Assembly (NCBI RefSeq): GCF_000230675.1
Contig: NZ_AGIK01000001.1
Span: 124,001-188,000 of the forward strand
Source of the DNA: Synechococcus sp. WH 8016
GTDB lineage: Bacteria; Cyanobacteriota; Cyanobacteriia; PCC-6307; Cyanobiaceae
Length of the DNA: 64,000 bases
Reading direction: 5' to 3'
Part shown: one piece after another, positions 37,180 to 53,141 of the stretch
Layout: every line of letters begins with the position of its first letter
How positions within the stretch are numbered: position 1 is the first letter of the stretch
Position numbers and translations under genes: made by a program
Notes under the pieces: model-generated
What the model was told of the DNA's origin: nothing
Database searches by the model: none
What the model saw: the letters and a program-made list of their open reading frames with translations, nothing else

Positions 37180-38075
37180 TAGCTGCTGCGGACCAAAGGT
37201 CCACTGCGCACTTGAGAAAAACCAAGGTCGCTGGCGATGGCACCAAGCTCTGCAAATTCCGTGGGGTGCCAGTAACGCTCTACGGGGATATGGGCCAAGG
37301 AGGGCCGGAGGTACTGGCCGAGTGTGATGCGCTGACAATCCACACGGCGTAGATCTTTCAAGGTGTCGACGACTTCATCTTTGCTTTCACCCAAACCAAG
37401 CATCAGGCCACTTTTGGTGGGAATCGATGGGGCAAGCTCTCTGGCCGCGGCGAGTAGTCCAAGCGAGCGGATGTAGGTCGCCCCACGGCGCACCTCGCCT
37501 TGGAGTCGTTTCACCGTCTCGAGATTGTGGTTGAAGCAAACGGGCTGTGCCTTCAGAACGCTGGCTAGCCGTTGCCGTTGAGCTTGGAGGGCTTTGGTTT
37601 GATCGGCCACACCGCCCCAGAAGTCTGGGGTGAGCACTTCGATGGCGATCAAGGGGTTGCGGGCACGGATCGCCGCCATCGCGTTGGTGAACAAGCTGGC
37701 CCCATGGTCTGCAAGGTCATCGCGGGCTACGGCCGTGAGGACCACATAGCGCAGTCCCATGCGCAGCACGGCTTCCGCCACCCGTTCCCCTTCCTCAGGG
37801 TTCAGGGCTTCTGGTGATCGGCCTTTGTCGACTTGGCAGAACGCACAACTACGGGTGCAGATGGAGCCACCGAGCAAGAAGGTGGCGGTACCGGCTGCGT
37901 AGCACTCCCCCCGGTTGGGGCAGCGGCCCTCCTCGCAGATCGTGTTCAGCCCGTTTTGTTTGACCAGGTTTTGCACCTCTTCAATCGCCGAGGCATTGCC
38001 GATCGGCCGTCTCAACCACTCGGGTAGGCGCTCACTGGGGCGGATTGCGCTGTAACGGCTCATGCTCGTTTTCAT
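37161..38075 (-). CDS. lipA: Lipoyl synthase
   Basis: This is a radical SAM enzyme that adds two sulfurs to octanoyl-protein. Both clusters are visible: the auxiliary [12 protein letters not shown] and the radical [38 protein letters not shown] and [10 protein letters not shown] are family stretches. I prefer the ATG at 38075 (304 residues), 20 bases past the recR stop; the frame is open to 38120 and another ATG is at 38063. Confidence 0.95.
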
Positions 38076-38094
38076 GACCGCATTTCTGGGGGGT

Positions 38095-38664
38095 TCATTC
38101 AACTGCTCGACGGCCTTCAAGCGCCCGACTCAAGGTGACGTCGTCGGCATATTCGAGTTCGCTTCCGACCGGAAGGCCGTAGGCGATTCGGCTGACGTCC
38201 GTAAATGGTTTGAGCAGGCGAGCCAGGTAAAGGCTGGTGGTGTCCCCTTCCACGCTTGGTGTGAGCGCCAGGATCACTTCTTTGATGTCGTCTGCTGCGA
38301 CCCTGTTCACGAGGCTGCTGATTTGCAGCATTTCTGGACCAATGCCGTCCATCGGAGAGATCAGGCCGCCCAAAACGTGATAGTTGCCCGCATATTCTCT
38401 GGTGCGTTCCAGGGCAAGCAGATCCCTTGAATCGGCCACCACGCAAAGCAAGCCGATCGAGCGCTCTGGATTCCTGCAGATCTCACAGGTGGGTTCCGCA
38501 CTGAGATGGAAACAGGTTTGGCATTGCCCCACCTGACTCCTTGCTGCCAATAGAGCATCAGCAAAACTATGGATCTGCTCTTCCGGTTGGCGAAGCAGAT
38601 GGAGAGCCAGCCGTTGTGCGGTCCGTGGACCAATGCCAGGGAGACGTTCGAACTGGTCGATCAA
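38095..38664 (-). CDS. recR: Recombination protein RecR
   Basis: The protein has 189 residues from a TTG at 38664. Present are the helix-hairpin-helix segment [18 protein letters not shown], a zinc finger with [16 protein letters not shown], and a Toprim domain ([15 protein letters not shown] and on). RecR works with RecF/RecO in gap repair. The family residues preceding this TTG ([10 protein letters not shown]) continue in frame up to a CTG at 38694, with no ATG, GTG or TTG before a stop, so the true start is probably a non-standard codon upstream. Confidence 0.93.
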
Positions 38665-38756
38665 CCGGGCTAGCGGTCGGGTGAAGCCGCTCAGAACTCT
38701 TCTGCAAGTCTCTGAAATCTAGGCAGGGAGATCTCCGGGCAGAATGGGATGGATTC

Positions 38757-39323
38757 ATGAACGATTCGATGCGCTTTCCTTCGCAAGTTCCGCTCCGATC
38801 GCTCCTCAGCGTCGTCTGTGTTTTATTGCTCACCGCCTGCAGTGGCGCTGGAGCTGGTCTTAATTCGTTCCAGAGCCCTGACGGCAGGTACGCCTTCCTC
38901 TATCCCACGGGTTGGACCCGTGTGGCGGTGACGGGAGGTCCCACCGTTGTCTTTCACGATTTGATCAACAGTGATGAGACGGTGAGCCTGGTGGTCTCGG
39001 ATGTGGATGCTGATAACGATCTACAAACCCTTGGCAGTGCTGTTGCCGTTGGGGAACGCTTGCGCCGTGATGTGATCGCCCCAGATGGGAGTGGACGCAA
39101 TGCCGAATTGATCGAAGCGCGAGAACGGGAGTCCTCAGGTCATACGTTCTATGACCTCGAGTACGCCGTGCATCTTCAGGATCGTGACCGCCATGAGCTG
39201 GCCACCGTCGTTGTTGATCGGGGCCGTTTGTATACGCTTGCCACAAGCACGAATGAAAGCCGCTGGCCTCGCGTTAAAGACTTATTTGAGTCTGTGATTA
39301 CATCGTTTACGTTGTTGATCTGA
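38757..39323 (+). CDS. PsbP-like lipoprotein
   Basis: The 188-residue product has a signal peptide with lipobox LLTAC (Cys near residue 28), so it should be a lipid-anchored lumenal or periplasmic protein. The mature part matches PsbP/CyanoP: SFQSPDGRYAFLYPTGW, VVFHDLINSDETVSLVVSDV, FYDLEYAVHLQDRDRHELATVV and RLYTLATSTNESRW. CyanoP associates with early photosystem II assembly. The start is the ATG at 38757; it is divergent from recR. Confidence 0.88.
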   Translation: MNDSMRFPSQVPLRSLLSVVCVLLLTACSGAGAGLNSFQSPDGRYAFLYPTGWTRVAVTGGPTVVFHDLINSDETVSLVVSDVDADNDLQTLGSAVAVGERLRRDVIAPDGSGRNAELIEARERESSGHTFYDLEYAVHLQDRDRHELATVVVDRGRLYTLATSTNESRWPRVKDLFESVITSFTLLI

Positions 39324-39335
39324 TAGATGTCCTAG

Positions 39336-39408
39336 CCATGGAGGAGGGGCTGATCCTTGAACATTGTTGACACAAGATTAATGTTCTTAGACTTGCCCTC
39401 ATCCATGG
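39336..39408. repeat. Long-spaced inverted repeat upstream of the HlyD-type gene
   Basis: CCATGGAGGAGGG (39336-39348) and CCCTCATCCATGG (39396-39408) are complementary at 12 of 13 positions with 47 bases between. They flank a candidate promoter. They may form a stem in RNA or a paired regulator site. Confidence 0.45.
39367..39393 (+). promoter_or_regulatory. Candidate promoter for the HlyD-type gene
   Basis: A consensus -35 TTGACA at 39367 is followed by TAGACT at 39388, a 15-base spacing that is short of ideal. It is the only good match in the gap and lies between the arms of the inverted repeat, about 50 bases before the GTG start. Confidence 0.35.
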
Positions 39409-39442
39409 TTTTCAGGATGGACCTGCAGAATAGATATTCCTT

Positions 39443-40750
39443 GTGGCTTTAATATCCCTCAGCAAGTTGAAAACGCGTTGGAATGGTCTTGATGACCATC
39501 GGCAGGTTGGGGTCTGTTTGGCAGGGATGGGGGGATTGTTCACGGCTTGGCTTTTGTTTTGGCCAGTCCCTACTCAAGTTGAAGGGAAAGGCGTTCTGAT
39601 CTATCCAGATAATGCTGGCGTTTTGAATGCCAGGTCTGCTGGTCAAGTGCTTGATGTGGATGTGCGTGTCGGTGATCGCGTTGAGAAACAGCAGGTCCTC
39701 ATGACGCTGTATTTGCCTGAGCTTGAACGGGAACTGGAGCAAGAAAAAGGGAATTTAAATCAGCTTCAAAAACAAAATATCGAGTTAAACCAGCGCGATG
39801 CATTGAGGATTGAGACTGCACGACAGGCTCTCGATACCACGCTCGCCAAACTCAAAGATGACGAGCGACGGCTGGGTGACCTCCAGAGCACGTTTGCGGG
39901 AAAGCTTCGCAACCTTGAATGGTTATCGCGTCGCGCGGTGGTCGCTCCCCTGTCCAATGAAGTGGTGTCAGCAGAGCAAGGACTGACCAGCACCAGTGTT
40001 GCTTTGGATGACCTCAAGATTCAAAGCAAACAGGCGCTGACGATGTTTCAGCAAATCAAACTAGATCTTGAGTCTGAGCAGCTCGATCGGACCTTTGTTA
40101 TTGATGATCTGAAGCGCAAGATTCGCGTCAGTGAGGCGAAATTAGCCTTTGATGGCACGATTACAGCCCAGCGCGATGGCCGTGTGCTGGATCTGCAGGT
40201 GATTCCCGGTCAGACCATCAAAATGGGGGATCGTCTTGGCACGATTGGACGGGGTGATGAGGCCCGAGGTAACGGCCGCGATCTGATCGCTGTCGCCTAC
40301 TTCCCCCCTGCTGATGCGCGTCGCTTACCCCTAGGGCTCCCCGTTGAAGTGGTCCCGCGCTGGAACCAAAGGGGGCGTTTTGGCGGCATTGAAGGGAAGG
40401 TAACGAGTGTGCTCACCTTGCCTGCAACCCAAGAAGATATCGCCACAACAACCGGTAATGCACAGCTGGCGAAAGACTTGGCCGGGGATGGCCCAGTGAT
40501 GCGAGCTGAGATCAGTCTGCAGCGTCAATCCAACTCTGATGATGGATTCCTTTGGACGCTTTCTGATGGAAGTGGCGTCTTCCCGATTCGCGATGGTTTG
40601 ACTGTGGACACCTTTGCTTATGTCGAATGGCGTTCACCGGTCACCTATGTCTTGCCGGGGCTTCGTTCGCTCACAGGCGGTTATCGCTCCTTGAGGATTG
40701 ACCGCTTCTTTGACTTACCTTTTCTGCGCCAACCAGACACTCTTCCTTGA
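39443..40750 (+). CDS. HlyD-family periplasmic adaptor (membrane fusion) protein
   Basis: The 435-residue product has a short cytoplasmic start, one membrane helix (about residues 24-42), a split biotinyl-lipoyl-like domain (NARSAGQVLDVDVRVGDRVEK and ITAQRDGRVLDLQVIPGQ), a long coiled coil between them (about 95-230) and a beta-barrel end. It would link an inner-membrane exporter to a TolC channel. The N-terminal style (PTQVEGKGVLIYPDNAG) is closest to adaptors of NHLM-type peptide export systems, but no precursor peptide or peptidase-ABC gene is nearby. The start is a GTG at 39443. It is followed by a 56-residue membrane peptide and converges with a TolC-type gene. Confidence 0.82.
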   Translation: MALISLSKLKTRWNGLDDHRQVGVCLAGMGGLFTAWLLFWPVPTQVEGKGVLIYPDNAGVLNARSAGQVLDVDVRVGDRVEKQQVLMTLYLPELERELEQEKGNLNQLQKQNIELNQRDALRIETARQALDTTLAKLKDDERRLGDLQSTFAGKLRNLEWLSRRAVVAPLSNEVVSAEQGLTSTSVALDDLKIQSKQALTMFQQIKLDLESEQLDRTFVIDDLKRKIRVSEAKLAFDGTITAQRDGRVLDLQVIPGQTIKMGDRLGTIGRGDEARGNGRDLIAVAYFPPADARRLPLGLPVEVVPRWNQRGRFGGIEGKVTSVLTLPATQEDIATTTGNAQLAKDLAGDGPVMRAEISLQRQSNSDDGFLWTLSDGSGVFPIRDGLTVDTFAYVEWRSPVTYVLPGLRSLTGGYRSLRIDRFFDLPFLRQPDTLP

Positions 40751-40763
40751 TTCTGTTTCCACG

Positions 40764-40934
40764 ATGTCATTGCGTCCACTCCTCAAACAAGAGATTCCTT
40801 GGTTAATCTCTGAATTGGTTTTATTGATCGTGCTTTTGAATGCTAATCCACCAGAATTATGGTTTTGGTTTGTCGTTTTTTTGGTGATTTTTGGATATCG
40901 AATTGAGCGCTGGTGGTCTTCAAAGTCTCAATAG
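40764..40934 (+). CDS. 56-residue membrane peptide after the HlyD-type gene
   Basis: The ATG at 40764 lies 13 bases after the HlyD-type stop. The peptide has an amphipathic start (MSLRPLLKQEIPWLISEL) and one or two hydrophobic helices (ELVLLIVLLNANPPELWFWF, then VVFLVIFGYRI), ending with RWWSSKSQ. It is rich in Trp/Phe/Leu. It is not the AaeX/DUF1656 peptide as far as I can see. It could be an accessory of the adaptor; function unknown. Confidence 0.55.
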   Translation: MSLRPLLKQEIPWLISELVLLIVLLNANPPELWFWFVVFLVIFGYRIERWWSSKSQ

Positions 40935-40946
40935 CTAGGGCTGCTT

Positions 40947-42803
40947 TCAAGGAAAACGAAGCGTTAATTGGGTTAATACGGGGTCGTTAGGATTCTTAGG
41001 CATGGGTAAGAGTTCACGCAGCATGCGTGCATAGGTGACATTCACATCCACAGTGGCAAATAATCGTCTCACCAAGGCATTCACGAGTTGTTCTTGGGTC
41101 ATGGACAGGTCCACTTCATCGCTCAGTCCGGTCTGGTAGCGCAGTTGTGTGTCGCGGAAGGCCTCTTTGCTGGCACCAACCGCTCGTCTGGCTGACACTA
41201 ATTTCGCCAAACTTGCTTCATGGTTTAAAAACGCTCGCTCGAGTCGTAAGCGAATCGCGTTTCGGGTCTTCGCATATTGCTCGGCGGCTGCTTGCTCTTG
41301 AAGTTGCAGTGCTTTCACTCTGTTTGAGGTTCCACCGGCATCAAAGATCATCCAATGGAAGGCCAGCCCCACCGACCATTCGTAACCGCTGACTTGCTCG
41401 AGTGGAAGAAACGTGCCGGCGCAGCATCCACCTCCGATTGGCGAAATATTGAAGGTGCGTTCTACGGCGCCCAGGCCACCGGCTGCTGCAAAGAGGCTGA
41501 GGCGCGGGAGTAGCTGGGCAGCCGCCTCATCTTGACGACGCATCAGTGCCTGTTGTGTGGCGAGAATCGCTGTGAGCTCTGGATTGTCGTCATAAGCCGC
41601 CAACACCGTTTTTTCTAGGTTTAAGGGCCATCGTGGTTGGAGCGTGATCGGGTCGCTGGCACTGGGGGTGATCTCACTCGACAGGTTGAGAACGGTCCAA
41701 AGGTCACGGCGGGCGACCGCACGATCAGCCATCGCTTGGATCAAGCTTTCTTCGTCCAAAGCGAGAAGGCTGCTCCGTCTGAGCAGATCCACTCTTGGAA
41801 CAAGACCAGCTTGTTTGAGATTAAGAGTGTCTTCTAAAACGACAAGATCGGTGCGAACGATCGCATCGCGAATGCGCACAAGTTGCTCAGCACGTTGAAG
41901 GTTGTAATAGGCCTCACTCACTTCAAGCTGAATCGCTCTTAATTGGTTGGCATAGAGATTTTCTTGTTGCCTAAGACGGGCTTGTGCGGCTTGAACTCTG
42001 GGAGTTCGCGCAAAATTAATGATGTCGTAATCGACTTGAAGCCCCGCATCGGCGGAGACCCCATTGGATACCACCCCGATGCCCCCCCCGGGTGGCTGGT
42101 AAAAGGGTCCAGCACTCACTCCACTGATGTCTTTCCCATTCTTGGTCAGCGCAAAATTGGGAGTCTGATCTTTTTGATTAAAGAGCGATCCCAGTCCGTA
42201 GGTGTTGTTGCCGTAGGGGGTGTAGGTGGTTGTTCCGCTTTGAAATCCATCCAGATTGGCGAACACACTGATCGTTGGCCAATAGCGACTTGATTCGGAT
42301 GCAATGGTGGCGGCCTGCGCCTCGATTAAATCTCGCTGAGCGCCTAGGGAAGGGTTGTTGCGGAAGGCCGTCGTGACAGCATTCTCAAGAGTGAGAGAAA
42401 GGACGCGTGTTTGGCGGTCAGTGGATGAAGGAAGGCGAAGAAGTGGATCAGGCTGCGCGTCTTGTTCTGTCAGCACACCGGAGGGGGGAGCATTGACATC
42501 GATCAGCCGTTGGGGGATTTCCAGGGTTCGGAGATCGTCACTGCTCTCGATCGCTGGTGCTGGACCGGTCAACGTGTCAGTAGCGTTGACCTGGGTATTC
42601 AGTCGTTCCCAGTTTTTCTCAAGTTGTTCTGTTGTGTCGTCTCGATCAAGAGGAGCCGCAATGGTCTGAGCGGCGACGGGCGCGAAGGTGCTGCAAATCA
42701 ATCCGAGCGCGGATAGGTAACGGCTGAGGACCAGATCACATCGGGAGGAATTCAACACGTGCTTCGGATGACGGCTCCTAAAGCCACTTTTGGGTATGTT
42801 CAC
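40947..42803 (-). CDS. TolC-family outer membrane channel protein
   Basis: The 618-residue product has a signal peptide (ALGLICSTFAPVAAQ, around residues 32-46), an N-terminal spacer rich in Asp/Thr, and two OEP repeats: the first around SLTLENAVTTAFRNNPSLGAQRD and the second around KTVLAAYDDNPELTAILA. Long coiled-coil helices (LRQQENLYANQLRAIQLEVSEAYYNLQRAEQLV) are visible. TolC proteins form the outer membrane exit of type I secretion and efflux systems. It converges with the adaptor gene. The start is the ATG at 42803. Confidence 0.88.
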   Translation of the reverse strand: MNIPKSGFRSRHPKHVLNSSRCDLVLSRYLSALGLICSTFAPVAAQTIAAPLDRDDTTEQLEKNWERLNTQVNATDTLTGPAPAIESSDDLRTLEIPQRLIDVNAPPSGVLTEQDAQPDPLLRLPSSTDRQTRVLSLTLENAVTTAFRNNPSLGAQRDLIEAQAATIASESSRYWPTISVFANLDGFQSGTTTYTPYGNNTYGLGSLFNQKDQTPNFALTKNGKDISGVSAGPFYQPPGGGIGVVSNGVSADAGLQVDYDIINFARTPRVQAAQARLRQQENLYANQLRAIQLEVSEAYYNLQRAEQLVRIRDAIVRTDLVVLEDTLNLKQAGLVPRVDLLRRSSLLALDEESLIQAMADRAVARRDLWTVLNLSSEITPSASDPITLQPRWPLNLEKTVLAAYDDNPELTAILATQQALMRRQDEAAAQLLPRLSLFAAAGGLGAVERTFNISPIGGGCCAGTFLPLEQVSGYEWSVGLAFHWMIFDAGGTSNRVKALQLQEQAAAEQYAKTRNAIRLRLERAFLNHEASLAKLVSARRAVGASKEAFRDTQLRYQTGLSDEVDLSMTQEQLVNALVRRLFATVDVNVTYARMLRELLPMPKNPNDPVLTQLTLRFP

Positions 42804-43074
42804 GCACTTTGGTCAGCAGTGACAGGTGTGCATGGCACAAGTTGGTTGAGTTTGACCGTTCGCGATCCATCGCCATCATGACCATGAGACTGTTTGCAAG
42901 CTGAACGAGGCTGCAGCAATGCATCGCCAATTCCTTCCATAGACTTTTTCCCTTGAGGGATTAATGCATGGGAGGAAGCTTCGCCTTTTTGGATCAACTT
43001 TTTGGGTGAGACTCTCGGTCAGTTTGGATGGATCTTTGGGATGCTTATTAATTGGGATTGATTGAATCTTCTAC

Positions 43075-44220
43075 CTATGACTTGTTTGAGATGGCTGTCA
43101 TGGATGGAATCGATACTGCTTCGATGATGGCCGATCGAATGTAGTCAATCAAGGTAACTCTTAGGATGATTTGTCTGAATCGTTGCTTGCTGATCTGGCT
43201 GTGTTCAGTGGCTAGGTGGTCGTGGGTGGTTTGTTCGAGCCATTGGCCATAATCACAAGAAAGATTCTTGATCTTAAGCATCGCCTGAGGATTTAATTTT
43301 TGATAGCTAATTGTTTTTGGGCTTCTGAGCTCGCTGCTGATCGATAGGATCTGCTTGCAGAGTATGTCTAATAATTCCGCTTCCTTTTGGTGAAGTTGCT
43401 TAATTTTTTCAGGCTTCTGAATGGGCGCACTCAGGCTTCTTATCGCCCATAGGGAGGTGAGTAGTTGTGAAGCTAGAAGGTCGATGCTGCTCCATAGTTC
43501 ATGCAACGGATGCTGTTCAGGATTCACTCCTAGCTCCATTTGTGCCATGGCCTGCTGCTGTCTCGCTGCATTGAGTTGTGTTTGGAGGGAGATGCGATTC
43601 GCCTGTTGTTGTTTTGGTGATCTGGCGCTTATGGAATCATCCTTCAGCCGACGACTCTCCGTTGATAATTCTTGTTCGATAGCTGCGAGTAGTGATGCAA
43701 ATTGTTGATGGAGTGTGGGAATGCTTCGACTGGGCCATATCGATTGTGATGCCCACAGTGATATAACAATCCCAAGTCCAGTCCAGAAGAGGCGAATCGG
43801 GCCCCAGACGGTTTCCACCTGTTCATGGACAAGCCATCCCATCACAATGATATTCCCAGCCACTTTGTAGCCCACTTGTAAACCTAAAATCCCTCCAAAA
43901 AGCCGCGTTGTGGCTAGAGCCAGTCCGAGCCCTAAAGGAAGAGGCAGCTCCAGTCCTCGGGTGAAAATGATCAGAATAATGACACCCATGAGGGAGCCCA
44001 GCAGTCTCTGAATGCCAAGCCTCATTGAATTTCCGTAGGTGCTTGCTAAGACAGCTGTTGTTGTGAGTGGTAAGTAGTAGCCATAGGGAATAGGGCTTAG
44101 GAGACCAAGTCCGGCACTGAGTCCGGTGACGACGGCGAGGCGTAGATCTTGTCGAGTCAACCAGGGATGCTGAGCGTGATGACGTTTGCTCTGTTGAGGG
44201 TGATGGTTATGATCCATCAT
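43075..44220 (-). CDS. FUSC-type membrane protein, second half-size copy
   Basis: The 381-residue product has a His/Gln-rich start, about six hydrophobic segments in residues 28-170 (for example GLSAGLGLLSPIPYGYYLPL and LLGSLMGVIILIIFT) and a long helical cytoplasmic part to the end. This is the FUSC/ArAE layout of aromatic-acid and other organic anion exporters, but only one membrane module is present, where AaeB-type proteins carry two. It starts directly at the stop of the first FUSC gene. The region is AT-rich compared with neighbours. Confidence 0.72.
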   Translation of the reverse strand: MMDHNHHPQQSKRHHAQHPWLTRQDLRLAVVTGLSAGLGLLSPIPYGYYLPLTTTAVLASTYGNSMRLGIQRLLGSLMGVIILIIFTRGLELPLPLGLGLALATTRLFGGILGLQVGYKVAGNIIVMGWLVHEQVETVWGPIRLFWTGLGIVISLWASQSIWPSRSIPTLHQQFASLLAAIEQELSTESRRLKDDSISARSPKQQQANRISLQTQLNAARQQQAMAQMELGVNPEQHPLHELWSSIDLLASQLLTSLWAIRSLSAPIQKPEKIKQLHQKEAELLDILCKQILSISSELRSPKTISYQKLNPQAMLKIKNLSCDYGQWLEQTTHDHLATEHSQISKQRFRQIILRVTLIDYIRSAIIEAVSIPSMTAISNKS

Positions 44221-45180
44221 TTATTTGCTTTGTTGAATCAAAATTTGATTCAGGCGTCTTTGACTGCTGACCAGTCGCAGAAAGCATGTGAACTCTTCCT
44301 CCAAGAGGATCCGTTGGGCGAGGCCAAGTGGATGATCTTGCTCGTGGAGTTGTAATGGCTTCCAGCCAATCACATAGTTTGGATCTAACTGTTCAGCCAA
44401 TTCAGGTAATCGTAGAGACTGGTTCCTGTGCGCTAGATCATCAAGAAGCCTCTCGCTTAAAATCCAGTGCGATTGAAGGCTGCGCCAAAGGCTGATGCGT
44501 TGTTTCCAGCGCAGCCGAATGAGCTGGTGGCGATGCCGTGGACCGAGTTGTTGTTCGATATTAATCAGACGCTGAATTTCTAAAATATCTCGCGTGATTG
44601 AGCCAGGATTTAATGGAGGTGGTGGAGTCGTGATCCCCTGCAGTGCTTGCATGTGATGCTGCATCCGCCGATTCAGTGCGGTCATCAGTTTTTGATGAAT
44701 CTCTTCCATGCGCTTCAAGCGATCTTTCGGCCAAAGCAAATGGCCCATCACTAAGGCGACGCAGATTCCCACGAGGGTGTCGATGCTCCTATTGAGGACA
44801 TAACTCCAATTTAAGAGTGCATAATCATGGATCCCCAGAAACATCACAGTAATCACAACAGCTGTCGACAAACCACTGGTCCAGCCCAGGCGTCGAAGCA
44901 GGGGGACGGTGATCAGAAGACTGACCAATATCCCGATCCAGCCTGATAAAAGTGTATGGACTAGAAAGACAACCAAGCCCCCACTAATCGTGCCAAGAAT
45001 TCTGCCTCGAGCTGCTCGTAGAGTATTTTCATCTTGATCATCAACCACAAAAATTACGGCTAAGACCGGATACCAAACGAAGTCGATTCGATCAAAGTGC
45101 TGAGCGATTGCGCAGGTAATTAAGACACTAATCCCGAGTCGCAGGCTTTGTTTGACAATGTTGTCGTTCATGCCAGACAT
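44221..45180 (-). CDS. FUSC-type membrane protein, first half-size copy
   Basis: The 319-residue product has about six hydrophobic segments in residues 10-150 (FVWYPVLAVIFVV, GRILGTISGGLVVFLVHTLL, STAVVITVMFLGI, LVGICVALVMGHLLW) followed by a helical cytoplasmic domain. The RAARGRILGT segment after the first membrane pair is typical of FUSC proteins. With its neighbour it adds up to about 700 residues, the size of one full two-module exporter. The ATG is at 45180, 18 bases after the LCP gene. Confidence 0.75.
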   Translation of the reverse strand: MSGMNDNIVKQSLRLGISVLITCAIAQHFDRIDFVWYPVLAVIFVVDDQDENTLRAARGRILGTISGGLVVFLVHTLLSGWIGILVSLLITVPLLRRLGWTSGLSTAVVITVMFLGIHDYALLNWSYVLNRSIDTLVGICVALVMGHLLWPKDRLKRMEEIHQKLMTALNRRMQHHMQALQGITTPPPPLNPGSITRDILEIQRLINIEQQLGPRHRHQLIRLRWKQRISLWRSLQSHWILSERLLDDLAHRNQSLRLPELAEQLDPNYVIGWKPLQLHEQDHPLGLAQRILLEEEFTCFLRLVSSQRRLNQILIQQSK

Positions 45181-45198
45181 GCTTGCTTGCAGACGTCC

Positions 45199-46107
45199 TC
45201 AGAACAGCAACTGGAAGCGTCTGCTGCTGGATTCACTCGAATCGATGCCTCGTTCTGGAACGTTTGCAGGCCATTGTGTGTCGAGATAACTCACTCCATT
45301 TTGATAAAAAGGACGGGCTTTGAGCCGACTGGTTTGGAGTTCTGTTGTTCCCATTGTGGTGATCAGTTTGCCTAACTCCATAGGGCCAAGATCTGTTTCA
45401 AGATTGCGTCCAGCTGCCGTGATGAGGGCTGGCAAACGGATGAGATGTTGTGGTTGGATGAGTTTATTGAAGAGGCTTTTCAAGACGAGTTGTTGTCGGT
45501 CAAGTCGGCCAAAGTCACCCTGTCCATCGTGGCGCCAGCGTAGAAAACCTTCAAGCTCACGGCCTTTGAGCACCTGAGGGCCTGGCTGAAGATCAATCAG
45601 TAATCCTTGGCTTTTATCTTGGTAGTAGAGGCGTTTAGGTACATCAACTTCTAGGCCTCCAAGTAAATCACTAATGGTGCGAATTCCTTCGAGATTGACT
45701 AAAATATGATGATTGATTGGTCGGCCCATTAAGCGAGTTAATTCTGTCTTAACGGCATCTGGTCCTCCTCTCGCATGAAGTGCGTTGGCCTTCATGGGAC
45801 CAAAGCTGCGAGAATCAATGTAGCTATCTCTTGGGATTTGAATGATCGAGGTTTCACCATTTTCAATTCCAAGGATGAAAATGGTGTCTGTATTGCCGCC
45901 TCCAGCATCCATCCCAAGAACAACGATATTCTCATTGTCAAAGCTGGACCAGCCTTCAAATGGGTTGCTGACGGAGACCAGATTGGGAAGTTCTGTTGAT
46001 GGAATCAGGGATCGACTGAGAGGGATCGATAGCAACAAGCCGCCAAAGAGTCCAAGCGCTGCTGCTGTGAACAGGGTTTTTTTATTCGGACTTCTTTGGC
46101 CGTTCAT
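45199..46107 (-). CDS. LytR-CpsA-Psr (LCP) family protein
   Basis: The protein has 302 residues from the ATG at 46107 (a TTG at 46113 is in frame). One membrane anchor (about residues 11-30) precedes a full LCP domain: VVLGMDAGGGNTDTIFIL, IPRDSYI (catalytic Arg-Asp, about 91-97), NALHARGGPDAV, and RWRHDGQGDFGRLDRQQ. LCP enzymes attach phosphorylated glycopolymers to peptidoglycan. Unlike the LCP-like protein at 13.3 kb, all key residues are here. It leads the two FUSC genes on the same strand with an 18-base gap, so they likely form one unit. Confidence 0.88.
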   Translation of the reverse strand: MNGQRSPNKKTLFTAAALGLFGGLLLSIPLSRSLIPSTELPNLVSVSNPFEGWSSFDNENIVVLGMDAGGGNTDTIFILGIENGETSIIQIPRDSYIDSRSFGPMKANALHARGGPDAVKTELTRLMGRPINHHILVNLEGIRTISDLLGGLEVDVPKRLYYQDKSQGLLIDLQPGPQVLKGRELEGFLRWRHDGQGDFGRLDRQQLVLKSLFNKLIQPQHLIRLPALITAAGRNLETDLGPMELGKLITTMGTTELQTSRLKARPFYQNGVSYLDTQWPANVPERGIDSSESSSRRFQLLF

Positions 46108-46174
46108 CTGCAAATTCTAGGTCTGTTCCTCCAACCGATGAATTGTGTTGAAGTTTGTGTCGTGACAACCATGA

Positions 46175-48265
46175 TTAGTGGAGTGGATCGCTAATCATTA
46201 GGGCCGGACAGCCCAACTGATGCACCAAGTTGCTCGTGCGATCACTGGCCGGAATGGGGAGGCCAGCAACGCGACGTCGTTGTGAACGCAGAATCACGAG
46301 ATCTTGGTTTTGGCTGAACCAGTGGATTTTTGAATCGATGCCAGGTCCTTGCAGCAGTTTGATTTGAATCTGTTGGCTGGAGATGTTACGCGGACACCAG
46401 CTCAGTAGTTGCTCTTCCATCCAGGATCGTTCGTGGCGATTGAAGCGCGGATCATGGATGTGAAGAAGGCTGATGGTGGTGGATGTTGGGTCAGGCGCGG
46501 TGGATAGGAGCCGCAGGGCGAGCTCAAATTGTTCGCGCGCACTGGCCGATAGATCTTTGATTGGAACCAAAATTTGGTTGAGTTCCTTGAGGTCTCGCCG
46601 CCCCAGATTGGCTACCACCACTGGACAATGAGCCGTTCGGCAGACCCCATCGACCAGATCGCCCAGGAGCCATTTGCGTAGTGGGTCAGGGCGTCCTGCT
46701 CCGATTAAAAGCAGATCGGCTCCCTCCTCTAAAGCGCTTCTGCTCATGCCCGCAGCGATGTCGTCATCCACGCGTAGGAGGCAACGCGTGGTTGCCTTAA
46801 GGCCCTCTCCGTTGCTGGCTGCCTGACTGAGCCTGCTCCTTGCGGCGGACAGGGCCCGATTTAAGCCACCGCGAGCTTCCTCAAGGCTTGGGCTCACCAG
46901 TGCGAGCGGAAGAAGCTGCCCATTGTGATCACCCTCTCCCTGGGAGAGTCGAGCCGCCAACTTCAGCAGACTCAACTCTGTCTCTGGGTTGGCCACTGGC
47001 ACCAATACTTTCAGCGGGCGGCGCACCACCTCTCCAGGTACGTCCTGATCTGGATTGAGTCCTGGTGTTCCAAAGCCGGAGTGTTCATTCGGTTCCATCA
47101 GGGCCACGACGGATCGAGTGGTGAGGGTTGGACCGAGCGTCGCCGTAACCACCATGACGGCCAGAACGCTGTTGAGAACTGTGTTGTCGAGCAAGCCGGC
47201 TTGATAACCAATGAATGCCGTTGCAAGCGTGGCGGCCACCTTCGGCATGGCGAGCGACCACATCAGCAGCATTTGATTGCGGCTGTAGCGGAACCAGCGC
47301 CCGGCAATCACGGACGCCAGGGCTTTGCATCCCAAAGCGCCAGTGAGCATGAGGGCTGTGAATTCAATGTTGCTGATGCTGTCGGCGAGGCTGCCGAGAT
47401 CGAGCAGCAGTCCTAAATGAATGAAGAAGATGGGGATGAATAAGGCTCCCCCTACAAAGATCACCTGCTCTTTGACCTTGCCTTCTGGAAGGACGGAATT
47501 CACGGCGAGCCCAGCCAGAAAGGCGCCCACAATTTTTTCAACCCCTGCGAGTTCAGCGCCAAGGGAAGCCACAAACAAGGTGAGTAACACCGCCAGAAAC
47601 ACCCGGTTTTCATCGATGACGCTGCGCATCCATAGATGGCGCCCAAGCATGCGAATGCCCCAGACGACGACGAAAGCAAACACACCGATGCTGATCAGCA
47701 GCGCCGTAAAGCTGCTCGGTGTGAGGTTTCCCTTGCCCAGCCCTAGGGCTACAGCGAGCAGTAATAGCGCTGCAATGTCGGTGAAGATCGTGCTTCCAAC
47801 GCTCACAATCACGGATTCGTCACGCTGGGCTCCGTAACTCCTCACGATTGGATATCCCAGCGGAGTGTGTGTGGCCATCAGGGCCCCCAAGAGCAGGCTG
47901 GGCACTAAGGGGAAGCCAAAGATCTGGCCGATGCCGAACCCCGTTCCAACCCCCAGAACAAAAATCAGGGCTCCGAAGGTCACGGAGCGACTTTTCACCC
48001 TGTTGAACTCTTCCAGGTCGATTTCCAGTCCAACCGTGAACAGCAAATAGATCGCTCCGATATCAGAAAGAAGCGTGATCGTTTCGCTTTTGGCATCGAT
48101 CCAATGCAAGACGTGGGGACCAACCAGGACGCCAGCGGCTAACAGTCCGACCAGATCGGGAAGCCTTAGCCGTCTGGTTAAGGGCGGAATCAAGACGCTG
48201 ATCCCAACAAGCTGAGCAAAAATGCCCAGTGGGTGATGCATCAGGTGGGACAGCGAAGCAGCCAT
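46175..48265 (-). CDS. Kef-type cation:proton antiporter with C-terminal UspA-like domains
   Basis: The 696-residue product has a CPA2 antiporter part of about 12 membrane helices (residues 10-385; for example VGLLAAGVLVGPHVLHWI and GAIYLLFTVGLEIDLEEF) and a cytoplasmic C-terminal part with two universal-stress-protein-like domains (LKVLVPVANPETELSLLKLAARL and NQILVPIKDLSASAREQFELALRLL). It exchanges Na+ or K+ for protons, and the UspA-like part may sense nucleotides. The start is the ATG at 48265. Confidence 0.9.
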   Translation of the reverse strand: MAASLSHLMHHPLGIFAQLVGISVLIPPLTRRLRLPDLVGLLAAGVLVGPHVLHWIDAKSETITLLSDIGAIYLLFTVGLEIDLEEFNRVKSRSVTFGALIFVLGVGTGFGIGQIFGFPLVPSLLLGALMATHTPLGYPIVRSYGAQRDESVIVSVGSTIFTDIAALLLLAVALGLGKGNLTPSSFTALLISIGVFAFVVVWGIRMLGRHLWMRSVIDENRVFLAVLLTLFVASLGAELAGVEKIVGAFLAGLAVNSVLPEGKVKEQVIFVGGALFIPIFFIHLGLLLDLGSLADSISNIEFTALMLTGALGCKALASVIAGRWFRYSRNQMLLMWSLAMPKVAATLATAFIGYQAGLLDNTVLNSVLAVMVVTATLGPTLTTRSVVALMEPNEHSGFGTPGLNPDQDVPGEVVRRPLKVLVPVANPETELSLLKLAARLSQGEGDHNGQLLPLALVSPSLEEARGGLNRALSAARSRLSQAASNGEGLKATTRCLLRVDDDIAAGMSRSALEEGADLLLIGAGRPDPLRKWLLGDLVDGVCRTAHCPVVVANLGRRDLKELNQILVPIKDLSASAREQFELALRLLSTAPDPTSTTISLLHIHDPRFNRHERSWMEEQLLSWCPRNISSQQIQIKLLQGPGIDSKIHWFSQNQDLVILRSQRRRVAGLPIPASDRTSNLVHQLGCPALMISDPLH

Positions 48266-48295
48266 CGGCGAAGTCTTGGATGAAAAGTTTTGGCG

Positions 48296-50116
48296 TTAAA
48301 GCGTCAGCGCTTCGTCACTGCGTAAGCCAGCTTGAACCCGCCAGAGGTCGGCGTAAGCGCCTGGTTTGTGCAGAAGTTGATCATGGGTGCCCTGTTCAAC
48401 AATGCGACCAGCGTCCATCACAATGATCTGATCGGCATGTCGCACGGTGCTAAGTCGATGCGCAATCACCAGTGTGGTCCGATTCGCCGTAATGCGCATG
48501 AGCGAACGCTGAATTGCCGCCTCTGTTTCATTGTCAACAGCGGCTGTTGCTTCATCAAGGATCAACACGGGTACATTTTTTAAGATGGCTCTAGCTAGGG
48601 CGATTCTCTGGCGCTGACCACCGGACAAACGCTGACCTCGTTCGCCTACAAGCGTGTCAAATCCTTGCGGGAGGCTTTCGATAAAAGCTAGGGCTTCGGC
48701 TTGTTCTGCTGCCCAAACGATGGACGACCTAGACGCTTCAGGAGTTCCGTAGGCAATATTTTCTGCGACGCTTCCGTGAAACAAATAAACATCTTGACTC
48801 ACGAGTGCAATGCAGCGGCGAAGATCTTGCAGATGCAGCGATGCAATCGGATGGTTGTCAAGAACAATCCTGCCGCTCGTGAGCGGATAAAGCCTCAGGA
48901 GTAATTTAACCAGTGAACTTTTCCCTGAACCTGTGGCACCCACAATGCCAATGGTTTCTCCTGCACGAATCTCTAGGTTGAAGTTGTTGAGTAGTGGTTC
49001 GCGATCTCTATAGGAGAAGCAAACATGTTCATAGCGTATGTCTCCTTTGATAGTCCGTGGGTTGAGATGAGTGCTTCCACTGGCGATTTGAATCGGAGTG
49101 TCAATGAGATCGAGTACTCGCTGTGTGGAGGCCATTGAACGTTGATAATCGTCCAAGGTTCGTCCCAATGTGGTGAGGGGCCAGAGCAGTCGCTGGGTAA
49201 TAAAGACCAAGAAGCTGTAGGTCCCCACAGCGATAAGTCCTTGCCAAGCTTGGATGCCGCCGATCAGAAGGATTGCTAAAAAGGCAAATAAGATTGCAAA
49301 GCGAATCAGGGGGATAAAGGCAGCAGAGATTCGAATCGCCTGACGATTGCACTGTCGGTAGGAATCACTGGCTGAACGTAGTTGTTCGAGTTCCCATGCT
49401 TCAGTTGCAAAGCTTTTGATCGTGAGCATCCCGCCAAGATTGTTAGAAAGTCGAGAGGCGAGATCTCCAGCTCGTTGGCGTACTTCGCGATATCGCGGCG
49501 CGAGGCGACGTTGAAAATTGAGTGATCCCAGAAGGATGATTGGGATTGGTAGAAAGGCGAAAAGTGCTACTCCCGGTGCCATGAGTGTCATGGCGCCACC
49601 GACCAGCAGAACGGTGGTGACTAATTGAAGGATTTCGTTTGCGCCCCGTTCAAGAAAGCGTTCCAGCTGATGGATATCATCACCAAGAACGGTGAGAAGG
49701 CGCCCAGTGCTATCTCTTTCAAAGAAATCCATCTCAAGTTTTTGGAGATGGTCGTAGGCCTCTAACCTCAAACTGTGTTGGGTGGTTTGTGCAAGATTGC
49801 GCCACAAAACACCGTAGAGATATTCAAAGAGTGACTCTGCGGTCCAGACCAGGAAGGAGAGCAGCGCCAGCACAATCAGTTGGCTCGGCACTGTTGTGGC
49901 ACCCAAGGCTGCCAGCCATGAAGAATCTTGCTGAACAACAACATCAACGGCGAGGCCAATGAGGACTGGAGGCAGCAGATCGAAGACTTTGTTGATGATG
50001 GAGCAGCTCACTGCCATCCAGACCCGTCTTCTGTAGGGCTGGAGATGGCTTAAAAGCCTTGGCAGGGCAGGCTGAGTGCGACCAGGCAGAATTTGATCGG
50101 CCATCACCAATGGCAA
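48296..50116 (-). CDS. ABC exporter, fused membrane and ATPase domains (MsbA-like)
   Basis: The 606-residue half-transporter has six membrane helices (residues about 30-320) and a C-terminal ATPase with Walker A GATGSGKSS, signature LSGGQRQR, Walker B LILDEATAAVD and the H-loop IAHRLSTV. There is no N-terminal peptidase domain. It works as a homodimer exporting a lipid, peptide or drug; the substrate cannot be read. It lies 30 bases upstream of the antiporter gene on the same strand. A different start inside (ATG at about 50104) is possible. Confidence 0.9.
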   Translation of the reverse strand: MPLVMADQILPGRTQPALPRLLSHLQPYRRRVWMAVSCSIINKVFDLLPPVLIGLAVDVVVQQDSSWLAALGATTVPSQLIVLALLSFLVWTAESLFEYLYGVLWRNLAQTTQHSLRLEAYDHLQKLEMDFFERDSTGRLLTVLGDDIHQLERFLERGANEILQLVTTVLLVGGAMTLMAPGVALFAFLPIPIILLGSLNFQRRLAPRYREVRQRAGDLASRLSNNLGGMLTIKSFATEAWELEQLRSASDSYRQCNRQAIRISAAFIPLIRFAILFAFLAILLIGGIQAWQGLIAVGTYSFLVFITQRLLWPLTTLGRTLDDYQRSMASTQRVLDLIDTPIQIASGSTHLNPRTIKGDIRYEHVCFSYRDREPLLNNFNLEIRAGETIGIVGATGSGKSSLVKLLLRLYPLTSGRIVLDNHPIASLHLQDLRRCIALVSQDVYLFHGSVAENIAYGTPEASRSSIVWAAEQAEALAFIESLPQGFDTLVGERGQRLSGGQRQRIALARAILKNVPVLILDEATAAVDNETEAAIQRSLMRITANRTTLVIAHRLSTVRHADQIIVMDAGRIVEQGTHDQLLHKPGAYADLWRVQAGLRSDEALTL

Positions 50117-50201
50117 GACGTTCTATTCAAGCGTTGTGTTGCCCAACAGCGTCAAACCTCCTGAAACGGTGTAGACCGGAATCAGAGATCGAGGAGACTG
50201 G

Positions 50202-50387
50202 ATGACTCGTACAAGAGCTTTCAATCGTTTTCATCGCTTCTTAGCGCGGAAGCATCGTGATGAAGTACGCAATGCAGCACCCGTTCTGCCTGTTGAAGAG
50301 ACAAGGCCTGGGGATCGCATTCAAAAGTTGATCGATCGTCGTTTGGAGCTGGATTGCAAGCTTGAAATGGAGGAGACGGCTCGATGA
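50202..50387 (+). CDS. Small basic protein of unknown function
   Basis: The 61-residue product is highly charged (Arg/Lys/Glu), with FNRFHRFLARKHRDEVRNAA at the start and a helical end LIDRRLELDCKLEMEE. The ATG at 50202 has GAGGAG at a fitting distance, which supports a real gene. No membrane segment is seen. Its stop codon lies in the loop of a hairpin. It converges with the RRM protein gene. Confidence 0.6.
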   Translation: MTRTRAFNRFHRFLARKHRDEVRNAAPVLPVEETRPGDRIQKLIDRRLELDCKLEMEETAR

Positions 50388-50396
50388 GCTGTCTCC
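50372..50396. repeat. Hairpin over the stop codon between convergent genes
   Basis: GGAGACGGCTC-GAT-GAGCTGTCTCC: 11 paired positions (one G-U in the plus-strand RNA) with a 3-base loop that contains part of the TGA of the 61-residue gene. There is no T-run on either side, so it may protect 3' ends rather than terminate. Confidence 0.5.
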
Positions 50397-50406
50397 CCCC
50401 GATGGA

Positions 50407-50763
50407 TCACCAGCGGTTGCCGCCGCCGTAGCCGCCGCCACCGCCGCCATTGCCACCACCGTTGCCGCCGCCGCCGCCGTAACCGCCGCGGCCGCCGCCA
50501 CCACCGCCGCCGCCAGTGCGCTCACGTGGGGTTGCTTTGTTAACGCGGATCATGCGACCCATCCACTCCACGTTCTGGAGGTCGTCGATGGCTTTTTGCT
50601 CATCTTCGTCTGTGGCCATTTCAACGAAGCCAAATCCGCGCTTGCGGCCTGTTTCGCGATCGAGAGGAAGACTTGCGCTCTTAACCTCTCCGTATTGACC
50701 GAATAGATCGAGAAGATCTTCTTGTTCTGCCTGGAAAGACAGATTGCCGATGTAGATGGTCAT
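50407..50763 (-). CDS. Glycine-rich RRM RNA-binding protein
   Basis: The 118-residue protein has one RRM (residues 1-80) with RNP2 IYIGNL and RNP1 KRGFGFVEM, followed by a Gly-rich tail (about 85-116) with Tyr/Asn/Arg interruptions. Cyanobacterial Rbp proteins of this class bind RNA, are often cold-induced, and help place mRNAs near thylakoids. CAGGA just upstream of the ATG at 50763 serves as ribosome-binding site. A 13-base element occurs twice in its leader. Confidence 0.92.
   Translation of the reverse strand: MTIYIGNLSFQAEQEDLLDLFGQYGEVKSASLPLDRETGRKRGFGFVEMATDEDEQKAIDDLQNVEWMGRMIRVNKATPRERTGGGGGGGGRGGYGGGGGNGGGNGGGGGGYGGGNRW
50408..50520. repeat. GCC/CCG triplet-rich repeat coding the glycine tail
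   Basis: On the plus strand a run of near-tandem GCC and CCA triplets codes, on the minus strand, for the Gly-rich tail of the RRM protein. Such runs change length easily between strains. Confidence 0.75.
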
Positions 50764-50782
50764 TTCCTGAGGGGACCGTTGG

Positions 50783-50941
50783 ACATTTGATCAGAGAAGT
50801 TTTGGTCCGAAAAGGAAAGTCCTTGATGCTGAAGCTGGAGAGCTGAAGCCTGGGGGAGCGAGCCGATCAGAGCCGAACATGAAGCTGATGCCTCACCACG
50901 CTACAGGTTTGCATGGAGCGACATCACAACATTTGATCAGA
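50783..50941. repeat. 13-bp element repeated twice in the rbp leader
   Basis: ACATTTGATCAGA is found at 50783-50795 and again at 50929-50941, 146 bases apart, both upstream of the RRM gene. The first copy is about 20 bases from the start codon. It is a candidate binding site for a regulator, or for the protein itself on its own RNA. Confidence 0.5.
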
Positions 50942-51035
50942 AAATCGAAAAGTTTCATTTTTTTCGATGTTCTGTCGCATGGTGAGGAGATCCTGACCAT
51001 GCGTTAGTGATGCACCAGGGATGCGTCAGGGGATA

Positions 51036-51329
51036 TCACTGAGTTTTCATGAGGGGGCCGTACTTCTCGGCGGCCAATTCTTTGCAGATTGTTTGGGCTT
51101 GCATGATAAAAGCAAGGCCCTTCATTTCTCTTGCAAAGCATGAACAGGTGAAATCACCCATGCCTTCTGGTGGCGTTTGTCCAGCTTGAGACATGGCGGC
51201 ATTAAAACCAGCCATGCAAAGCTTCTTGATTTCTTCCGAATCATCGGCGGCCTGCGCGATTGATCCGGTGGTTGTGATCAGCATGGGCGATAGGCAGAGG
51301 CTGATCACAAGGCGGAGAAGATGATTCAA
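51036..51329 (-). CDS. Small exported cysteine-containing protein
   Basis: The 97-residue product starts with a signal peptide (LLRLVISLCLSPMLITTTGSIAQA) and should be exported. The mature part carries four cysteines (KLCMAG, TCSC, TICKEL) that could make disulfides or hold a cofactor. The start is a TTG at 51329, three bases after the DEAD-box helicase stop, so the two genes may share a transcript. I do not recognise the family. Confidence 0.6.
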   Translation of the reverse strand: MNHLLRLVISLCLSPMLITTTGSIAQAADDSEEIKKLCMAGFNAAMSQAGQTPPEGMGDFTCSCFAREMKGLAFIMQAQTICKELAAEKYGPLMKTQ

Positions 51330-51332
51330 GAG

Positions 51333-53141
51333 TTAGGAATCCTGGCGGATTTGAAGCTCTCGGTTCATCACTTTCAGTCGGCGTAGTGAATTGAAAACGT
51401 TCTCAGGCATCCCTTTGGGAAGGTCCACCAGGCTGTGCGTCTCAAAGATTTGAATTCGCCCAATCATCCGTCCTTCGAGTCCTGACTCATTGGCGATGGC
51501 TCCAACAAGGTTGCCGGGTTTGACGCGATCGCGATGGCCGACTTCAACCCTGAACCGCTCCATATCGTCTTCGGGTGGGCGTGATGCCCGCTCGGGTCGC
51601 CTGCCGCGCTCGTGACCACCGCGATCTCCGCGTCGGTCATCTCTCCTGTCGTTGCGCATTGGAGCTTTCAACCAGCTTTCATCGCCCTGCACCAACAGAG
51701 GTCCTTCGCCAACGGCCAACCTCATGGCGGCCAGGGTGAGTTGACCGGGTTCCACCTCGAGCTCTTGGGCCACGCGTTGGATGAGTTCTTGAAGCAGAGC
51801 GGTTTCTTCCTCTGGTTTGTCTTCGCTGGTGGCTTCAGCGCTCAAGCGGGTGCGAAGACGGTCGAGTCGACTCTGGTTGATTTCGGCATTGCTAGGGATG
51901 TCCATCGGTTCGATGGCCTGTCCCACGGCGCGTTCGAGATTGCCAACGAATCTCCGCTCCCTGGGCGTGATGAACAGGATGGCTTCCCCACTGCGGCCCG
52001 CTCGGCCTGTGCGACCGATGCGGTGCACGTAAGCCTCACTATCAAAAGGCATGTCGTAGTTGATCACGAGACCGATGCGATCAACGTCGAGTCCGCGCGC
52101 TGCCACATCGGTGGCAACCAGGATGTTGACGGTTCCTTTGCGCAGGCGTTCCACGGTGCGCTCCCGTTGGTTTTGGGGCACATCTCCGTTGAGCACAGCC
52201 ACGTCGTGACCAGCGGCTTCTAGGGATTCCGCAACGGTGAGGGTGATGGCTTTGGTGCGCGCAAAAATAATCACTCCTTCACCCGTCACCGCCTCGAGCA
52301 CACGGTTGAGTGCTTCGAGCTTGTGAGAGTTCTGCATCGTGATGCAGCGATGACGGATTCGGCGTGCCTCCTTCTCCTTCGTTTTGATCGTGATTTCTGC
52401 CGGTTCACGCAAATAGCGCTTGGAGAGCCTGCGAATTTCGTTCGGCATCGTCGCTGAAAACAGCACGACCTGACGCTCTTCAGGCAATTGTTCAAGGATC
52501 CATTCGACGTCGTCGATGAAACCCATCCGCAGCATTTCATCGGCCTCATCGAGGACGAGGCTGCGCAATCCGCTGGTATTCAGCGTTCCTTGGCGCATGT
52601 GATCCATGACCCGTCCTGGGGTGCCCACCACGACGTCAACACCACGCCTTAACGCGTTGATTTGGGAGCGGAAATCGGATCCCCCGTAGATCGCCAGCAC
52701 GTTGAGGTGAGGGTGCCCAGCGGAATAGGCCTTAAACGCTTCTGCCACCTGCATCGCGAGCTCACGGGTCGGTGCCAGCACAAGCACGCTCGGGAGTGGG
52801 CTGTCGCCTTGCAATCGCTCCAGCAAAGGCAGAGCGAAGGCGGCTGTTTTCCCTGTGCCGGTTTGCGCTTGGCCCACGAGATCGCGTCCGAGCATGAGCT
52901 CAGGGATAGCCTCCTTTTGAATCGGCGAGGGCTCTTTATATCCCTTATCAGCAAGTGTTTTGAGCAGGGCTTCGCTGAAGCCGAATTCTGAGAATCCAGA
53001 CGGTGCCTCTGGCTCTTCGACTTTTTCAATCACCGTTGTAAACACGTCATCGTTGGGTTCGGATGGCGTGGTCTCGGAAATCTCAGACATGCTGAGATCC
53101 ACTGAACAGGACCCTTCGCCCTGAGCTGGTGTATTGGTCAT
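51333..53141 (-). CDS. DEAD-box ATP-dependent RNA helicase (DeaD/CsdA-like)
   Basis: The 602-residue protein has an acidic N-terminal stretch, a Q motif (GYKEPSPIQKEAIP), motif I AQTGTGKT, DEAD motif LDEADEM, SAT, and motif VI HRIGRTGRAGR, then an Arg-rich segment (RNDRRDDRRGDRGGHERGRR) and a DbpA-type RNA-binding domain at the end. CsdA-type helicases act in ribosome assembly and RNA decay, often at low temperature, which fits an RRM protein gene nearby. The start is the ATG at 53141. Confidence 0.95.
   Translation of the reverse strand: MTNTPAQGEGSCSVDLSMSEISETTPSEPNDDVFTTVIEKVEEPEAPSGFSEFGFSEALLKTLADKGYKEPSPIQKEAIPELMLGRDLVGQAQTGTGKTAAFALPLLERLQGDSPLPSVLVLAPTRELAMQVAEAFKAYSAGHPHLNVLAIYGGSDFRSQINALRRGVDVVVGTPGRVMDHMRQGTLNTSGLRSLVLDEADEMLRMGFIDDVEWILEQLPEERQVVLFSATMPNEIRRLSKRYLREPAEITIKTKEKEARRIRHRCITMQNSHKLEALNRVLEAVTGEGVIIFARTKAITLTVAESLEAAGHDVAVLNGDVPQNQRERTVERLRKGTVNILVATDVAARGLDVDRIGLVINYDMPFDSEAYVHRIGRTGRAGRSGEAILFITPRERRFVGNLERAVGQAIEPMDIPSNAEINQSRLDRLRTRLSAEATSEDKPEEETALLQELIQRVAQELEVEPGQLTLAAMRLAVGEGPLLVQGDESWLKAPMRNDRRDDRRGDRGGHERGRRPERASRPPEDDMERFRVEVGHRDRVKPGNLVGAIANESGLEGRMIGRIQIFETHSLVDLPKGMPENVFNSLRRLKVMNRELQIRQDS

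Follow-up and report, generated by a model that had tools for sequence, protein, structure and literature searches.

We analysed a 64,000-nucleotide stretch of the Synechococcus sp. WH 8016 genome (contig NZ_AGIK01000001.1, positions 124,001 to 188,000; hereafter the window), which carries two adjacent half-size genes of the FUSC superfamily, here named F1 and F2, together with genes for a TolC-type outer-membrane factor and a HlyD-type periplasmic adaptor. F1 and F2 are probably the halves of one FUSC-type inner-membrane exporter, an F1:F2 heterodimer, that would form a tripartite pump with HlyD and TolC; we put the probability of this reading at about 0.77. In the proposed mechanism F1:F2 would take a small organic anion or a toxic metabolite from the cytoplasm, HlyD would bridge the periplasm between F1:F2 and TolC, and TolC would pass the compound outside. 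We infer the heterodimer, the assembly of the pump, the direction of export and its energy source, and the substrate class is most likely the one suggested by analogy to AaeAB, MdtNOP and the ALMT anion channels. A first-pass annotation of the window had grouped the FUSC pair with an upstream LCP-family glycopolymer transferase gene and had omitted HlyD; the unit is most likely F1-F2-TolC plus the convergent HlyD gene.

Results of the Pfam and NCBIfam searches agreed with the family names of the window genes (Table 1). Four of them, LCP, F1, F2 and TolC, lay on the minus strand with gaps of 18, 0 and 271 bases, so that the coordinates confirmed what had been described earlier: an intact LCP gene, 18 bases, two FUSC genes of 319 and 381 codons with no gap, and a TolC gene about 270 bases downstream on the same strand. 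Both F1 and F2 scored above the Pfam cut-off for FUSC_2, and F1 also above that for ArAE_1. Their best NCBIfam matches were the YccS/YhfK models TIGR01666/01667, in the C-terminal module, with 21-42 bits against cut-offs near 470; these models are about 700 positions long, unlike the half-size proteins found here. The MdtO model gave 12.2 bits with F1, below its cut-off of 821. In the window and in its relatives F1 and F2 are separate genes and not two modules of one chain of ~650 residues. The F1 TAA directly abuts the F2 ATG in the window, in an identical reading frame. A single gene split by a stop codon in this genome alone was rejected as the origin of the two, because the relatives too carry two genes, overlapping and out of frame.

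AaeB and MdtO are FUSC proteins, and the cassette is best read, by analogy, as an asymmetric AaeB/MdtO-type pump whose FUSC protein comes from two genes. In excerpt, the review PMC8277102 names AaeAB and MdtNOP of E. coli and Bucl8-fusCDE of Burkholderia as efflux systems, files AaeAB and MdtNOP under the major facilitator superfamily, sets a question mark at the outer channel of AaeAB, and lists MdtNOP in a table beside AaeAB, whose substrate is given there as p-hydroxybenzoate (pHBA). These three systems resemble the present one in combining an inner-membrane protein of the FUSC superfamily with an adaptor and an outer channel; they differ in that the window encodes the FUSC protein in two genes and has a convergent HlyD. 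The best candidate for an AaeX-type DUF1656 protein in the 2.69 Mb genome of the window strain (G000) reached 13.4 bits, below the cut-off of 26.5. The first-pass annotation knew of no described system with its gene set, and among the papers listed in searches of open-licence literature there was likewise no description of a split FUSC pair or of an LCP-FUSC unit in cyanobacteria; the layout of FUSC with HlyD and TolC, on the other hand, is a known one in the excerpted parts of PMC8277102.

The four exporter genes were found largely in the same genomes. We surveyed 201 genomes of the family, taken from its named members to be the Cyanobiaceae, with cut-offs near the orthologue level (F1 ~1e-40, F2 ~1e-35, TolC 1e-80, HlyD 1e-60 and LCP 1e-60), and a separate scan of named genomes, including Synechococcus, Cyanobium and Vulcanococcus, yielded 67 loci. 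The counts of the survey are uncorrected for relatedness, and some misses reflect fragmented genomes: F1 was present in 64 genomes, F2 in 63, TolC in 64, HlyD in 66 and LCP in 111. F1 occurred together with F2 in 62 genomes, with TolC in 62 and with HlyD in 61 (Jaccard index 0.95, 0.94 and 0.88, respectively). At the looser limit of E<=0.001, F1 had matches in 76 of the 201 genomes and F2 in 77; a search of 386 genomes from the wider phylum gave F1-profile matches in 21 at E<=1e-15, and 19 of these 21 belonged to the family. Of the named loci able to show it, 47 of 56 had TolC downstream on the F1-F2 strand (nine were without it), and 46 of 54 had HlyD convergent downstream (eight without it). 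The locus of Synechococcus WH7803 (L138) shares the gene order of the window. The traits of FUSC tripartite efflux, i.e., a FUSC protein, a linked HlyD and a linked TolC, were thus present, and the earlier suggestion of TolC as partner of the FUSC pair gained support from both the co-occurrence and the linkage. In two genomes, G048 and G108, a divergent FUSC pair (~30% identity) accompanied TolC and HlyD at the corresponding site. Many genera carry a conserved membrane protein of ~290 residues between F2 and TolC (L086:10682-11566), with no Pfam match at E<=0.001; elsewhere an OprB-type porin takes this position.

The order F1-F2 is not a product of chance, since F2 directly followed F1 in 60 of the 67 named loci; in five others the contig ended first, and F2 was missing in two (L177 and L201). 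All 48 named loci with both starts resolved showed an F1/F2 overlap of 4–22 bases, a count that is supportive only because the script favoured starts near an overlap. A second pair, F1b-F2b, follows in 18 of the 67. Profile comparison related F1 to F2 with a probability of 97.5, their identity being 20% across 174 columns. A 55-row tree placed 17 F1 sequences on one side of a branch (support 95/95) and 17 F2 sequences on another (85/81), F1b adjoined F1 (97/93) and F2b adjoined F2 (95/98); with each half grouping with its counterpart, the pair appears to be old and, most simply, to have been duplicated as a pair. The simplest account of these sequences is also that two distinct halves predated the pair duplication. 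A third, very divergent FUSC pair (G193, L206) divided likewise, one member being F1-like and the other F2-like, with weak support on the F1 side (83/60). G193, which belongs to the same genus as the window strain, has three FUSC pairs in one genome (L205, L206). A second type of F1-F2 locus was seen in L080, L087, L092 and L103, directly after a gene with three mnmA tRNA_Me_trans domains.

The two halves differ at one conserved site. F2 has a TYGNS-type motif there, with GTYG in most F2 sequences, NYGN in F2b and THGS in the single half-size protein of L245. The equivalent site of F1 is an acidic cluster, D47, D48 and D50, which in F1b reads INDND or VNEND; D50 was invariant and D47/D48 were conserved at >=90% in alignment A7, whereas all three were invariant in alignment A1. 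With F2 keeping the usual GTYG..QR-type site and F1 an acidic cluster in its place, substrate gating and coupling might be divided between the two genes. An obligate, asymmetric F1:F2 heterodimer could then represent a distinct architecture of tripartite pump, in which two heterodimers may share one TolC and one HlyD where the second pair follows TolC; we offer this tentatively, at somewhat short of even odds.

Predicted structures related each half to the ALMT anion channels. The model of F1 alone, from 22 rows, had a predicted local distance difference test score (pLDDT) of 85.8 and a predicted template modelling score (pTM) of 0.74, and placed a helical domain of cytosolic type after the membrane helices. 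Its best match was AtALMT1 (Z 16.0 over 314 residues, root-mean-square deviation (rmsd) 5.3); all ten chains above Z 8 were ALMT, and the next, unrelated structure had Z 7.3. A joined F1-F2 model from 23 unpaired rows (pLDDT 80.2, pTM 0.77) also gave ALMT as top Foldseek matches (best E 4.6e-4); its F2 half aligned with AtALMT1 at Z 15.6 (335 residues, rmsd 7.7), and the C-terminal part of F2 with PhoU-like bundles at Z 17.8 (202 residues, rmsd 3.2). The likeness to AtALMT1, ALMT9 and ALMT12 lies in the fold of each half, a membrane bundle plus a helical domain. It does not extend to sequence: identity in the alignments was 8-15%, no ALMT family stood among the Pfam matches up to E 0.1, and sequence-profile searches of solved structures gave no match for F1 and, for F2, four weak ones to unrelated helical proteins (best E 0.28). 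The present proteins differ further in being bacterial and in forming two different subunits.

ALMT proteins are homodimers, and because they work as dimers this fold most naturally suggests that F1 and F2 dimerise, as a reading rather than a result. The same background would suit F1 and F2 as independent ALMT-like homodimeric channels without obligate pairing, as would the single half-size FUSC genes of other cyanobacteria (e.g., L203, L245, L246 and L249). We consider independent homodimers unlikely, given the F1-F2 tandem in 60 of the 67 named loci (with five cut off), a tree that fits duplication as a pair, and the difference between the halves at the conserved acidic site. The heterodimer of half FUSC proteins proposed by the first-pass annotation finds indirect support in the near-constant tandem, the pair-wise duplication, the two-module layout and the ALMT-like fold of each half, while their physical pairing is what we infer.

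The type of HlyD bears on which transporter it serves. The protein scored 193.2 bits with TIGR03794, the NHLP bacteriocin adaptor model (cut-off 156.2), and the window includes an MsbA-like ABC gene (48296-50116), so HlyD and TolC might serve an ABC transporter, MsbA-like or a bacteriocin exporter, with F1-F2 as mere neighbours. This is very unlikely: MsbA is kept in genomes without HlyD and TolC (L214-L218), whereas the presence of HlyD and TolC tracks that of F1/F2. Bacteriocin export is disfavoured because the NHLM-like ABC pair of this genome, encoded elsewhere, comes with TolC and HlyD genes of its own in line, and because a search of G000 for NHLP leader peptides gave no match at E<=1; the best score in the genome with the NHLM ABC2 model (the only NHLM ABC model searched there) was 547.6 bits, with a cut-off of 709.4. 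The same HlyD type, moreover, adjoins full-length FUSC genes at four loci of distant cyanobacteria outside the family. G260 (L204) has TolC, HlyD (TIGR03794, 205 bits) and a FUSC protein of 718 residues side by side, and in L242, L243 and L244 such a HlyD precedes a FUSC protein of 745–778 residues. These arrangements thus share with the window the HlyD type and the superfamily, and in L204 also TolC, but their FUSC protein is one chain of 718-778 residues; F1 and F2 both matched the N-terminal half of the L204 protein best. FUSC_2 matches were found in 33 of 145 genomes, from 13 of which 15 regions were fetched: three had the HlyD-FUSC arrangement and the other twelve a long or half-size FUSC gene without it, one of them (L246) with a weak HlyD match ~2.6 kb from FUSC. 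The genome of the window strain also has a separate type I secretion-like unit of overlapping TolC-HlyD-ABC-ABC genes (L261, G000:C2:24000-40000).

Comparisons within the genus showed the exporter genes to be absent or damaged as a group. The genus sample comprised nine genomes with the cassette, including the broken one of G075, and one without it, G034. In G034 the series MsbA-CPA2-LCP is directly followed by psbP: homology to the window ends with the final base of psbP, at 39323, and is picked up again at 45159, a little way into F1; ~75 unmatched bases separate the two points. HlyD, TolC and F2 are therefore absent, as is F1 apart from its first bases, and LCP is present. LCP is followed by a short stretch similar to the start of F1, which hints at loss rather than at an originally empty site, though its length does not allow certainty. 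In G075 (L073), F1, F2, TolC and HlyD carried stop codons and/or frameshifts, and no such lesion was found in seven other genes checked (LCP, CPA2, MsbA, PsbP and three more). Decay thus affects the four exporter genes jointly and spares LCP; this looks like an ongoing loss of the cassette, and sequencing errors would hardly have picked exactly these four genes. Among 16 LCP loci chosen from genomes without an F1 orthologue, F1, F2, TolC and HlyD were absent from 14 within the 12.8–19 kb read, and the remaining two (L220 and L227) were the case of the divergent FUSC pair with TolC and HlyD described above for G048 and G108.

Several observations weigh against a four-component pump built on an F1:F2 heterodimer. 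HlyD is on the opposite strand and therefore outside the F1-F2-TolC transcript; it occurred without F1 in five of the 201 genomes, and F1 without HlyD in three. In strains UW105 and UW140 (L141, L142; G169, G156) TolC is off-locus, its best match being ~30 kb from F1, and no TolC profile match was found in L242-L244 within the 14.5 kb read. F1-F2 had no TolC, HlyD or LCP nearby in L156, L160, L161, L163 and L174, and lay beside an mnmA-type gene in L180, L181 and the four loci of the second type (see above), so the pair may also work alone or with distant partners. The first-pass annotation would have called its unit chance if the gene order were confined to this genome or if the FUSC proteins had unrelated partners elsewhere; the order recurs in many genomes, but the FUSC pair is also found beside an mnmA-type gene or with none of these partners. 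Tree support was modest for the F2 branch and for the split of the third pair. As for the structures, a Foldseek search with F1 alone ranked ALMT first at E 0.023, with no match at E<=0.001, and the joined model, coming from unpaired rows, provides no evidence for a dimer in the arrangement of its halves.

The upstream LCP protein is a regular member of its family, with 110.9 bits for the LytR_cpsA_psr domain (cut-off 24.6) and a TIGR00350 score above the cut-off. It shares these memberships with the transferases TagU, MsrR and Cps2A and matched the solved structures of MsrR and TagU by profile, but has NTD where MsrR has the RTD motif. The first-pass annotation had joined LCP and the FUSC pair into one unit that may export or assemble an envelope compound. 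On such a reading the heterodimer would export or flip a compound, and LCP would then attach it to peptidoglycan. Gene position lends this some appeal: in seven of the nine cassette genomes of the genus LCP is codirectional with F1 and some 12–54 bases from it (likeliest starts), and 13 of the 67 named loci have LCP immediately upstream (one of them, L202, with no more than the first bases of F1 readable). Given the 18-base gap co-regulation is possible, and LCP and F1 may share a transcript in this strain, which need not mean a shared function. In 32 of the 67, however, an antisense gene of the MgtC family (Pfam PF02308, assignment tested on one member) stands between LCP and F1 (in L158 LCP is 8 kb off), three have a gap of 551–1176 bases, ten have no LCP in the >=5 kb readable upstream, and nine were cut off upstream. 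The antisense gene also occurs inside the genus, in G181 and G193, with ~490 bases between LCP and F1; LCP and F1 therefore need not share a transcript even there, and for this reason an LCP-FUSC unit was judged less likely.

The distribution of LCP pointed the same way. At E<=1e-60 all 64 F1 genomes had an LCP-family match, but 47 of the 111 LCP genomes lacked F1 (Jaccard index 0.58); at the orthologue level of E<=1e-115, LCP was found in 54 of the 64 F1 genomes and in 43 others (0.50), leaving ten F1 genomes without it. Together with the intact LCP genes of G034 and G075, where the exporter is absent or broken, these results make a joint LCP-FUSC unit highly improbable; LCP was rejected as a member of the exporter and is most likely a gene of the neighbouring backbone. 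Excerpts of PMC2632651 report LCP members in most of the cyanobacterial genomes then known, and in only 2 of 12 Prochlorococcus marinus genomes. The window holds a second LCP-family gene of the genome at 13304-14299 on the minus strand (Pfam 1.5e-19).

Table 1 Genes of the exporter cassette and its surroundings (window positions)
Feature	Position	Strand	Remarks
F1, half-size FUSC subunit	45180-44221	-	319 codons; Pfam ArAE_1 3e-10, FUSC_2 4e-9
F2, half-size FUSC subunit	44220-43075	-	381 codons; Pfam FUSC_2 1.5e-8
TolC-type outer-membrane factor	42803-40947	-	618 aa; Pfam OEP 6e-49; co-occurs with F1/F2
HlyD-type periplasmic adaptor	39443-40750	+	435 aa; convergent with TolC; above TIGR03794 cut-off
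LCP-family glycopolymer transferase	46113/46107-45199	-	302-304 codons, intact; Pfam LCP 8e-32; upstream neighbour, judged most likely outside the exporter
CPA2-type cation/proton antiporter with C-terminal Usp region	46175-48265	-	Between MsbA and LCP
MsbA-like ABC gene	48296-50116		Upstream of CPA2 antiporter
psbP	last base 39323		Beyond the HlyD gene

The picocyanobacteria of this group rank among the major primary producers, and the compounds they release influence how they interact with other microbes. The conserved cassette of four export genes, which tends to be present or missing as a whole, offers a defined genetic target in the search for an exported compound. The naturally split FUSC protein would also allow separate tests of the two modules, which one-chain proteins prevent, in a superfamily that is poorly understood.

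The scan for promoters and terminators gave numbers not above those of shuffled sequences (3 vs 6.0 and 11 vs 10.0, respectively), and an Rfam scan of 38000–51500 found no family at the gathering score. In this genus, and also in G054 and G061, the CPA2 antiporter gene separates MsbA from LCP, an arrangement not seen in most of the other genera examined. Further along the window, at 53635-62257 on the minus strand, genes matched a UvrD/AAA helicase, a UvrD helicase and the exonuclease V gamma subunit, and therefore make up a RecBCD-like set.

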